A stretch of 64,000 nt of DNA, taken from the NCBI RefSeq assembly GCF_022479115.1, contig NZ_CP092497.1:6882001-6946000 (forward strand), in the 5' to 3' direction. Positions 16,456-41,312 of the stretch are shown here, one piece after another (position 1 is the first letter of the stretch; each line of letters opens with the position of its first letter). Under the pieces are notes generated by a model. That model ran no database searches. It was not told the DNA's origin and saw only the letters and a program-made list of their open reading frames with translations. Source of the DNA: Amycolatopsis sp. EV170708-02-1. GTDB lineage: Bacteria > Actinomycetota > Actinomycetes > Mycobacteriales > Pseudonocardiaceae. The position numbers were made by a program, and so were the translations under genes.

Positions 16456-21150
<4,695 letters not shown>

Positions 21151-39047: not shown

Positions 39048-39530
39048 TCAGTGCTGCGGAGCGCCCGCCTGGTCGCTCAGCATGCGGAGAGCGTTCACGA
39101 GGCCACCGACGAGGTCGCCTTCCTTGAACGAGGCCACCATGCTGGCCACGGCGAGCTTCGCGCCGCGGTCGGGCAGGCGGTGCCGGGCCTGCGTGCCCGT
39201 CACGACCTCGATCGCCCGCTGGCCGGGCGACACGGCGACGATGACACCGTCGGCCGGGTTGTCGGTCGAGGTCAGCAGCCCTTCGGCGGTGGCGCGGGTG
39301 TCCTCGCCGAGGTCGCCCAGGTATACGCTGAAGTCCAGGCCGGTTTCGCGGCTGGCGAGCGTCAGCGCCTCGTCCAGCCGGGCGAGCTGCTGGGTGGTGA
39401 ATGGGCTGATCGGACCAGCCGGTTCGTACATCTTGGCGGCGGAAATCCGGCCGCTCGAGGTAACGGCGGCGCCGTAACCGGGCTCTTCGTCAACAGCGGT
39501 GGACGAATGGGTCAGTTCACCAGTTGCCAC
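39048..39530 (-). CDS. DUF5130 (TPM-like) family protein
   Basis: Encodes 160 residues from a GTG start. The central part SPFTTQQLARLDEALTLASRETGLDFSVYLG followed by DNPADGVIVAVSPGQRAIEVVTG has the alpha/beta pattern of the TPM/DUF5130 family, but without a signal peptide or membrane helix. Function is unknown. It corresponds to Rv2468c in gene order. Its start overlaps the end of a small membrane-protein gene by 14 bases, indicating coupled translation. Confidence 0.82.
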   Translation of the reverse strand: MATGELTHSSTAVDEEPGYGAAVTSSGRISAAKMYEPAGPISPFTTQQLARLDEALTLASRETGLDFSVYLGDLGEDTRATAEGLLTSTDNPADGVIVAVSPGQRAIEVVTGTQARHRLPDRGAKLAVASMVASFKEGDLVGGLVNALRMLSDQAGAPQH

Positions 39531-39780
39531 GAGCGCCTCCCGTCACCGAAGCTCCGTCCGCCGCGACGACGGCGGTCGCGCCGCCCTCGTTCGCGTGCGG
39601 ATGCCTTGCGCCGACCCCGTCGGGGTTGGCGCTCCACCACATGGCCGGGTACTCCCACGGCTGCCCCGGCCGGTACCGGGCGACGCCCGCGCCCTTCGAC
39701 CGCAGCGTGGCCACCCCGCACAGCGCGTAGATGGCCAAGGGGATCACCGCGAAGACCAGGATCGTCTCGACAAGGTTCAC
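39517..39780 (-). CDS. Small single-pass membrane protein
   Basis: Encodes 87 residues from a GTG start, beginning NLVETILVFAVIPLAIYALC, one membrane helix, followed by a cytoplasmic tail with RPGQPWEYPAMWWSANPDG. The WEYP-MWWSANP block looks conserved-type rather than random, and similar small proteins precede DUF5130 genes in other actinobacteria as far as I recall. It overlaps the DUF5130 gene and is probably its operon partner. The longer frame to 39885 adds an unlikely hydrophilic lead. Confidence 0.75.
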   Translation of the reverse strand: MNLVETILVFAVIPLAIYALCGVATLRSKGAGVARYRPGQPWEYPAMWWSANPDGVGARHPHANEGGATAVVAADGASVTGGARGNW

Positions 39781-40058
39781 GCGCGTGAGCGTATCCGATG
39801 GCGTGCGGCCCCACCCGCTCGCACGGCACCTACCGCTCGTCGTCCGGAGGGGGCCGTCCGCCGCTTGCCGCGAAAGCGCTCCCACGTTGGGGCGAAGCCC
39901 TCAAGGCCGAAAGGTTGCAACTCAACGTACGGGCGGCCGCACCCGGCGCTGTCGTCTTGTCGCGGCCTTGAAATCCTCGTAGCTTTTTCACCTGTACGGG
40001 CCTTGCGCCCAGCTCCCCCACCCCAGCAGGTAACGCACCGGTCGCAGGAGGATATGTC

Positions 40059-40412
40059 ATGCAGAGCACCCAGACACCCGGCCAGGCGATCATCGACGAC
40101 ATTTCGTCACTCTTCGAAATTGGATTCGTCCCCGGTACGCGTGTGACGGCGGGCACACGGGTTACGCGCGGTACACGTGTCACTCGCGGTACGCGGGTCA
40201 CCGCCGGCACCCGGGTCACCCGCGGAACCCGCGTCACGCGAGGCACCCGCGTCACCGCCGGAACCCGCGTCACCCGTGGCACGCGAGTCACCCGGGGCAC
40301 CCGCGTGACGGCGGGCACCCGCGTCACCTGCGGCACGCGCGTCACCCGCGTCACCCGCGGCACCCGTGGCACCCGCGTCACCTGCCAGAGCGACTTCTCC
40401 CTCGCCGCCTGA
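40059..40412 (+). CDS. GTRVT hexapeptide-repeat protein, undescribed
   Basis: Encodes 117 residues. A 25-residue head (MQSTQTPGQAIIDDISSLFE then IGFVP) is followed by twelve contiguous hexapeptides GTRVT[A/R/C], a VTRGTR interruption, a thirteenth GTRVTC, and the tail QSDFSLAA. The sixth residue follows the order A-R-R for three and a half cycles; cysteines occupy it in the 11th and last units. AGGAGG at 40046-40051 sits 7 bases before the ATG, an ideal ribosome binding site. Codons vary among units almost only synonymously. The product is very basic. V at one position and T four later fit the left-handed beta-helix hexapeptide rule loosely; a RiPP-like precursor or nucleic-acid-binding peptide are other options. 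No modification enzyme is adjacent. Confidence 0.75.
   Translation: MQSTQTPGQAIIDDISSLFEIGFVPGTRVTAGTRVTRGTRVTRGTRVTAGTRVTRGTRVTRGTRVTAGTRVTRGTRVTRGTRVTAGTRVTCGTRVTRVTRGTRGTRVTCQSDFSLAA
40134..40385 (+). repeat. 18-bp tandem repeats coding GTRVTx
   Basis: Twelve consecutive 18-base units run from 40134 to 40349, then two partly degenerate ones to 40385. The consensus is GGCACCCGCGTCACCCGC. First and second codon positions are nearly invariant while Gly, Thr, Arg and Val codons change freely at third positions. Because the unit length is a multiple of three, other frames on both strands are also open through it. Confidence 0.92.
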
Positions 40413-40480
40413 GCCCGGGCACGACCGGTTCACAGGGGACGGCGCACTCGTAGCGAGCTTCACCATCGCGTCATCGGCCC

Positions 40481-40508
40481 GCCCCGGCCGCCGAAAGGCA
40501 GCCGGGGC
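40481..40508. terminator. Strong hairpin with GAAA tetraloop between convergent genes
   Basis: GCCCCGGC (40481-40488) pairs with GCCGGGGC (40501-40508); inside, GCC pairs with GGC around a GAAA tetraloop after one C-A mismatch. It is followed by CGACGCTTTT on the plus strand. It lies between the GTRVT gene and the convergent HNH gene, so it can end both transcripts. Confidence 0.65.
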
Positions 40509-40541
40509 GCCGACGCTTTTCGGGGCCCGGTCATGACCGGA

Positions 40542-41312
40542 TCAGGCGGCGGTTCCCAGGTACGGCCGCCACAACGGGTCGGCCTCCTTCGAATGCGCGA
40601 GCAGCCGCCAGTGCGGCCCGTGCGGGGCCCTCGGCACGACGCGCAGGCGCCAGCCGATCTCGGAAAGCAGCTTGTCCGCCTTCCGGTGGTTGCACTTGGC
40701 GCAGCAGGCCACGCAGTTCGTCCAGCTGTGGGGACCTCCGCGACTGCGCGGGACGACGTGGTCGATCGTCTCGGCCCGCCCTCCGCAGTAGGCGCAGCGG
40801 TACCGGTCGCGATGCATCAGCCCGGCCCGGGTCAGCGGCACCTGCGCGCGGTAGGGCACGCGCACGTAGGTGCTCAGCCGGATCACCGAAGGCACGGGCA
40901 GCGAGACCGTGGCGGCGTGCAGTTCGAGCCCTGCCGGGTCTCCGTGCACCACCTCGGCCTTGCCGCACATCACGAGGACCACCGCGCGCCGCAACGGCAG
41001 CGCCGTGAGCGGTTCGAACGTGGCGTTCAACAGCAATACCCGTCTGCGGCCCCAGGACGACGCTGTCGTCGTAGTGGGTACCGCCGAAGTCGACGGATCC
41101 CGCCCTCTACGCTGTCCGGGCGGGCGGGCAACACCCCCTGGCCGCGTTCCCGGCCCGCCCGGTGGAGCCCCGTGCGAGGGGGCACCTCCCGGATGGGCGC
41201 GCAACACGACCTCCGGCGCCTGTCCGGCCACGGCTTGGCTCGGGACGCCGAGGGGGATGGGTTGTCGGTCTGGCACTCGACCACCTCCACCGGTGCAGGC
41301 ATAGTCGACCAC
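40542..41312 (-). CDS. HNH endonuclease-domain protein
   Basis: Encodes up to 256 residues. The C-terminal half has an HNH domain: YRCAYCGGRAETIDHVVPRSRGG (first CxxC, then the catalytic His of DH), then WTNCVACCAKCNHRKADKLL (second CxxC and the N and H). A preceding domain starting LLNATFEPLTALPLRRAVVL is shared with actinobacterial HNH proteins such as Rv2469c. The first 85 residues are Pro/Gly/Arg-rich and might be untranslated: several later GTG starts are possible, so the 5' end is uncertain. Cleavage target unknown. Same place in order as Rv2469c. Confidence 0.83.
   Translation of the reverse strand: MVDYACTGGGGRVPDRQPIPLGVPSQAVAGQAPEVVLRAHPGGAPSHGAPPGGPGTRPGGVARPPGQRRGRDPSTSAVPTTTTASSWGRRRVLLLNATFEPLTALPLRRAVVLVMCGKAEVVHGDPAGLELHAATVSLPVPSVIRLSTYVRVPYRAQVPLTRAGLMHRDRYRCAYCGGRAETIDHVVPRSRGGPHSWTNCVACCAKCNHRKADKLLSEIGWRLRVVPRAPHGPHWRLLAHSKEADPLWRPYLGTAA

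Follow-up and report, generated by a model that had tools for sequence, protein, structure and literature searches.

What is the function of a protein that consists, for most of its length, of one pentapeptide written out again and again? The question is raised by a small gene in the window, by which we mean the whole stretch of 64,000 nucleotides from Amycolatopsis sp. EV170708-02-1 that was analyzed (Table 1). The reading that we tentatively prefer, at a probability of about 0.4, is that the protein is a multivalent docking array whose repeated word would co-evolve with a putative partner. The main finding, which lies beyond the reach of any single-sequence reading, is that lineages have exchanged one pentapeptide for another in nearly all copies together, and the comparisons behind it point to an undescribed protein family with a role in recognition.

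A repeat held at the level of the peptide

The original prediction, made from the letters of this one genome, described a protein of 117 residues with a 25-residue head and thirteen GTRVT units, together with a perfect AGGAGG 7 bases ahead of the ATG, and re-reading of the open reading frame confirmed all of this. An ATG with at least four Shine-Dalgarno bases is present in 128 of 129 loci, the remaining one being a false member (L130), a count for which the script picked start codons by that same Shine-Dalgarno score. The array is the only one in its genome, and its 54-base period (three units) outscores the 18-base period in Tandem Repeats Finder. Near the end of the array the register is disturbed (GTRVTR-VTRGTR-GTRVTC), a local change confined to VTRGTR at 40350-40367. 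Ten named relatives with arrays of equal length (L032-L041) read GTRVTRGTRVTRGTRVTC at this place, with GTRVTR instead of VTRGTR.

Table 1. Features of the array gene and its surroundings, in positions of the window
Feature	Position	Strand	Remarks
DUF5130/TPM-domain gene	39048..39530	-	Conserved flank, beyond ctaJ
ctaJ	39517..39885	-	Upstream neighbor; NF050118, 93.3 bits (cut-off 43); NCBIfam match starts at residue 37
Promoter-like pair TTGTCG - 17 nt - TAGCTT	39957..39985	+	Conserved; pattern TTGTNN-17-TANNNT in aligned relatives
Box TTTCACCTGTACGGGCCTTGCG	39986..40007	+	22 bases, conserved; near predicted transcript start
Shine-Dalgarno AGGAGG	40046..40051	+	7 nt upstream of ATG
Array gene	40059..40412	+	117 aa
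Head	40059..40133	+	25 residues; omega 1.06 (few changes)
Array of GTRVT pentapeptides	40134..40385	+	13 perfect, one-residue linkers; omega 0.011
Tail QSDFSLAA	40386..40409	+	SsrA-like C-terminus; omega 0.26
HNH endonuclease-domain gene	40542..41312	-	Conserved convergent flank, used as anchor

One possibility is that there is no protein gene here at all, and that the repeat arose by DNA slippage or is a DNA or RNA element with incidental reading frames. The tandem repetition of the DNA would suit such an origin, as would an open reading frame on the minus strand that also spans the array, but the distribution of substitutions does not. As the original prediction had noted for the DNA of the units, the five core codons of the 13 units are invariant at positions 1 and 2 and variable at all five third positions. 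A match is present in 80 of the 80 Amycolatopsis genomes searched, and between 11 species with arrays of equal length the third positions of the plus frame hold 1128 of 1158 array differences, with an omega of 0.011 in the array (dS 0.29, dN 0.003) against 1.06 in the head, where dS is only 0.04, and 0.26 in the tail. The corresponding values in a second group of 12 species are 0.068, 0.78 and 0.28, and across 91 GTRVT loci there are 1465 perfect pentapeptides and 26 one-off ones. Moreover, third positions differ less between species at the same unit (0.249) than between the units of one genome (0.593), and the same is true of 11 species of the second group (0.219 and 0.629); thus, the units are old and have stayed in order, and it is selection rather than recent DNA copying that keeps the peptide uniform. 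Frameshifts inside homologous arrays had been proposed as grounds for abandoning the peptide, and among 114 loci no array units lie in another frame or past a stop except at L174, which we rejected as a frameshifted array since it is made up of tandem genes, three or more in number, with a separate start for each. The slippage or DNA-element reading is already refuted at the level of sequence and is given hardly any weight here; judged by these comparisons, the array gene is a real gene under selection.

Words that switch between lineages

In genomes with a weak GTRVT match or none, the slot of the array was read with the HNH protein as anchor. In a first set, 43 of 45 genomes were read, and an array was found in 19 of 24 Pseudonocardiaceae and 4 of 4 genomes of family f4, against 0 of 4 in family f8 and 0 of 11 in other families. 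A second set had arrays in 11 of 18 Pseudonocardiaceae, two of which were known GTRVT controls, and in 4 of 8 readable f4 genomes, two further f4 genomes being unreadable. These counts leave out G391 and G397, whose slots were unread, and G479 and G491, which matched only distant HNH genes. Tallied over both sets and other slots, the reading covered 40 Pseudonocardiaceae genera, of which 33 have an array and seven (g5, g14, g19, g30, g41, g44 and g45) showed none in the slots read. A gene that is fixed at one locus across its genus and occurs in some version in so many genera yet has few database entries, and those with names are hypothetical proteins.

The scarcity of entries is plain from the searches. 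With the window protein as query, a database of 5.8 billion predicted proteins returned no Amycolatopsis relative, and gene callers may miss the array gene; the sole match, P0001, was judged to be spurious and to lie in a repeat-rich frame. A GVRIS sibling used as query gave five matches, the three named ones hypothetical. The window protein falls short of the cut-off of every Pfam and NCBIfam model, its NCBIfam matches by a wide margin, in line with the earlier impression that the repeat belongs to no known family, and full-text searches of an open-access library found no published description of the array family. PADLOC had no defense-system model that matched any of the three array proteins tested. 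In PHROGs, the sibling L137 matches phrog_15773 (57.6 bits) and phrog_8332, both families of unknown function, and the window protein, L149 and L131 have no match.

Sixteen words were found, namely GTRVT, GVRVT, GTRIT, GIRVT, GIRVN, GVRVN, GVRIN, SVRIT, GVRIH and GVRIS outside f4, and GTRVG, AVRVG, GSRIG, GARIG, GIRMG and GGRFG within it. In every word residue 3 is Arg and residue 4 is V, I, M or F; the invariance of Arg is partly built in, as both motif scans required it and could miss an Arg-free array, and the periodicity scan accepted any period. Position 2 is T, V, I, S, A or G, with S, A or G in some f4 genomes. The conserved unit is the pentapeptide [GSA]-x-R-[VIMF]-[TSNHG], present in 3 to 51 copies per array and joined by linkers that are much freer.

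Within a genome the word hardly varies. In a set of 130 arrays (which includes L132 and L192 and leaves out L001-L031, the false L130, 13 duplicate loci and L194), 1976 units carry the word of their own lineage and only 4 that of a different one, with 31 more departing from their word by a single residue, although the many species per genus are not independent and 1976 against 4 overstates the number of events. The residues that are standard in one lineage almost never appear singly in an old array of another, which implies that what a unit may be is set by its fellow units or by a reader specific to the lineage. A tree of the HNH protein with 80 rows requires 21 changes among the 17 labels, compared with a shuffled mean of 46.1; supports in this tree are rough, since bootstrapping was not yet fully stable and the f4 part contains long branches that come together. 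In this tree the GVRVT genome L125 is a nested sister of a GTRVT genome (97/90). Only 5 DNA spellings occur among the 12 units of L125, as though a single changed unit had been re-amplified into the whole array. We regard the array family, and the rule that its word is uniform within a genome but switches between lineages, as established at the level of sequence. That any of 16 words is allowed but nearly every copy carries one word is an unusual signature, and it separates a unit-to-unit or partner-specific constraint from a generic constraint on sequence.

The linkers are less constrained. Between GTRVT units, 1225 of 1362 linkers are one residue long (R 667, A 287, M 120, C 94 and others), and the rest have 2-24 residues, some of these being imperfect units; in GVRIS and SVRIT arrays most linkers have 3-4 residues. 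The cycle of A-R-R at the sixth position, with Cys in its place twice near the end, holds in the window, where the sixth residues run A R R A R R A R R A C R ... C, but it is only partly kept in relatives: linker identity in 26 representatives is enriched at lag 3 and also at lag 7 (0 of 500 shuffles each), and weakly at lag 4. Cys is likewise not general and is lacking from 31 of 130 members.

Charge also varies. It was suggested early on that the protein might bind nucleic acid or another polyanion, and since window-type arrays are strongly basic, the form considered here would bind nucleic acid or polyphosphate through its positive charge. Net charge per array residue ranges from -0.045 to +0.317, with the maximum in L131, but two SVRIT arrays, L134 and L138, have net charges of -3 and -7 and their motif is still uniform. 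Basic character is thus not a general property of the family, and the charge-based form of a nucleic-acid or polyanion binder is disfavored and seems to us quite improbable.

Several observations on individual members may be recorded here. The heads of seven non-Amycolatopsis members (L113, L133, L136, L137, L151, L122 and L124) share a stretch of the type [VILF]TRS[GDS] some 10-16 residues from the start and are unlike the Amycolatopsis head. At L174 (genome G419, family f4), the tandem genes are consecutive and consist of AVRVGR repeats, with one word common to separate paralogous genes. At L071, recorded as Rhodococcus rhodnii NRRL B-16535, the tree places the HNH protein beside that of Kibdelosporangium philippinense, as its sister (100/80), and the array heads of the two are nearly identical; the record is probably mislabeled or contaminated. 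L130 (genome G423, E 4.9e-12) was dropped as a member, being a repetitive frame for which no slot gene was found, and weak matches outside the family occur also in G567, G667, G593 and more.

A fixed locus and an SsrA-like tail

Among the 93 arrays whose flanks were read, 90 sit between minus-strand ctaJ and the convergent HNH gene, each at a distance of no more than 1.5 kb. The three exceptions are L108, which a contig end cuts off, L131, in which ctaJ is further off, and L097, in which the HNH gene is absent from the 10 kb downstream, a stretch that contains 200 N. MscS, globin and glucosidase genes usually follow downstream among the loci listed. The DsbA-like, M1 aminopeptidase, globin and glucosidase neighbors are presumed to be such from the reading of their open reading frames, and we take the gene order to resemble that of the Rv2466c-aglA region of M. 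tuberculosis.

The conserved elements upstream of the gene suggest how it may be expressed. The pattern TTGTNN-17-TANNNT was read by eye, and is uncounted, from aligned upstream regions. With up to 8 mismatches allowed in 24 positions, the box that follows the pair is found in 116 of 121 loci, a count that includes some genomes twice; it is absent from family f4 and has one genomic occurrence at up to 3 mismatches. Of the 106 loci having no more than 6 mismatches within 100 nt, 105 place CACCTG 68-72 nt from the ATG. Going by this conservation, the pair and the box would belong to a promoter, the box lying close to where transcription begins. A consensus promoter scan gave no site at the pair, an intrinsic terminator scan found none, Rfam had no match on 39700-40560, and a consensus RNA fold of the 5' region gave no structure. 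In most of the Pseudonocardiaceae loci read, the box keeps a constant distance to the start codon although the DNA between them has diverged.

The locus also bears on whether the protein might be a multi-copy precursor that releases its pentapeptides, with or without prior modification, as signal peptides or as a RiPP. Tandem pheromone precursors have a lineage-specific sequence that is uniform within a genome, and arrays of 3 to 51 copies with the TRS-like stretch common to several heads would be compatible with such a role. The abalone VERL and the yeast alpha-factor precursor are tandem recognition or pheromone arrays, and like them the pentapeptide arrays are uniform within a genome and different between lineages; unlike them, the pentapeptide arrays have no visible secretion signal, free linkers, one fixed locus and rare switches in an otherwise purifying regime. 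In the heads, inspection by eye found no obvious secretion signal, and the residues that flank the pentapeptides (R, A, M, C, S, N, RE, ALEC and others) offer no constant cleavage site. As for a conserved leader, omega in the head is 1.06 and 0.78 in Amycolatopsis, and the TRS-like stretch is seen by eye in several other heads. In the f4 members L131 and L175 the head is down to about 4 residues, which weighs against a precursor. No RiPP enzyme was recognized among the conserved neighbors (DsbA-like, M1 aminopeptidase, DUF5130, CtaJ, HNH, MscS, globin and glucosidase), which counts against the RiPP precursor of the original prediction, and a peptide precursor of any kind appears unlikely.

The tail of the protein resembles a degradation signal. 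The tmRNA tag of the same genome, AEPKSQREFALAA, ends in ...REFALAA, and the window protein ends in ...SDFSLAA. A C-terminal LAA is found in 50 of 130 members compared with 1 of 1017 other long open reading frames at the loci, and a C-terminal AA in 68 of 130 compared with 31 of 1017, against a background that is rough, being made of mechanically chosen frames from related loci. LAA tails accompany six different words, as in SEFALAA and SDYALAA. The likeness to an SsrA tag, as a ClpXP degron, is close in sequence, and the differences are that the array tail is encoded in the genome, ends a repeat protein and has LAA in the 50 members only. Regulated turnover by a Clp protease would be the natural reading of such a tail.

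Possible folds, proposed docking and a putative partner

A close rival to docking, and one that we consider quite possible if short of likely, is that the array stacks upon itself: each pentapeptide would form a short beta-strand, the chain would wind into a beta-solenoid or cross-beta stack in which units match each other, and Arg would form an outward ladder. Self-matching would account for both the uniformity and the whole-array switches with no partner at all. Positions 2 and 4 are beta-prone and alternate in the Pseudonocardiaceae words, the enrichment of linkers at lag 3 is as such a fold would have it, and some siblings match beta-helix profiles above cut-off. Hexapep (PF00132, cut-off 27) is matched by L136 (31) and L131 (28.3), both just over the cut-off, and DUF2345 (PF10106), which we take to be a beta-helix of the VgrG-spike type, is matched by the SVRIT sibling L137 with 58.8 bits against a cut-off of 30.7; these matches suggest beta-strands. 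AlphaFold2 on the single sequence of L137 gave a run of short strands with a mean pLDDT of 79.5. Against PDB sequences the window protein has a single match, the ferripyochelin-binding protein 6ive, with an E of 0.049, far from significance.

Other results sit less well with self-stacking. Siblings also pass the cut-offs of diverse models, namely the DnaN N-terminal domain (L149), Pirin_C_2 and Big_9 (L137) and DUF6799 (L140), so the sibling profile matches are unspecific, and the window protein itself is below all cut-offs. Window-type arrays have the six-residue period of Hexapep, but the conserved unit of the family is a pentapeptide centered on Arg, the period differs in other lineages, where linkers can be long, no transferase domain is present and the window protein does not match. 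Similarly, in contrast to DUF2345, the array protein is short, stands alone and is encoded at a chromosomal housekeeping locus. For the window protein, AlphaFold2 reached a mean pLDDT of only 63.7, with five discordant models that range over 42.5-63.7, and Foldseek with the L137 model found no PDB match at E <= 0.001. AlphaFold2 overpredicts beta-solenoids for perfect repeats, according to one study (PMC11795689).

The left-handed beta-helix suggested in the original prediction divides in two. A coil of 18 residues, or three hexapeptides, fits the A-R-R cycle of the window and the lag of 3, but over the family enrichment at lag 7, repeat periods that vary by lineage and linkers of 2-24 residues count against it, and its strict form is disfavored; a looser beta-stack is not, and retains the weak and unspecific profile support in siblings. 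With only 31-46 residues, the smallest members (L153, L175 and L131) speak against a packed solenoid throughout the family, and so do those f4 genomes in which position 2 is Ser, Ala or Gly. A collagen-like fold was rejected, as Gly occupies every sixth position and not every third, and the collagen match is below cut-off.

The docking reading, to which we return, would work as follows. The array protein is probably short-lived, and at each of its pentapeptides one copy of a conserved cellular partner would dock (or the site would be modified), so that the array would gather many partner copies as a scaffold or sponge; the SsrA-like C-terminus would let Clp protease remove it. All units of a genome would have to fit the partner of that genome, which would explain both their near identity within a genome and their joint switches between lineages. 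The gene, its selection, its fixed locus, the uniformity, the switches and the tail we regard as secure as far as sequences go; docking, a co-evolving partner and proteolysis are what we infer from them. Constraint falls on the pentapeptide with freer linkers, omega contrasts the array with head and tail in both species groups, and the excess of own-word over foreign-word units holds across 16 words, with a nested switch at L125. The minimal members, the SsrA-like tail and the variety at position 2, which resembles a linear motif more than a packed core, are also consistent with docking. Against it, the uniformity at all five positions exceeds what most linear motifs need, the degron is not general (62 of 130 members are without an AA end), the motif is beta-prone with some siblings matching beta-helix profiles, and the unit count and the invariance of Arg carry the limits given above. 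Lineage-specific arrays would in any case be ready-made reagents for finding the reader.

A bolder version, which we regard as a long shot, is that the word is a lineage-specific password. The central Arg would be a site of modification or docking, and its reader a factor from core proteolysis or the stress response, such as the ClpC1 N-domain in the case of phospho-Arg, and the array would be a self-destructing multivalent sponge whose word co-evolves with the reader, all copies being rewritten at once. If this were true, a single locus would supply 16 matched peptide codes ready-made by nature. One report (PMC9604228) describes phosphoarginine in M. smegmatis and links it to ClpC1, which makes the Arg-modification version testable but does not support it.

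The window contains one further tandem repeat. At 16947-19056 a 276-base repeat is present in 7.6 copies, and to us it reads like the repeated HAMP modules of a presumed sensor kinase.
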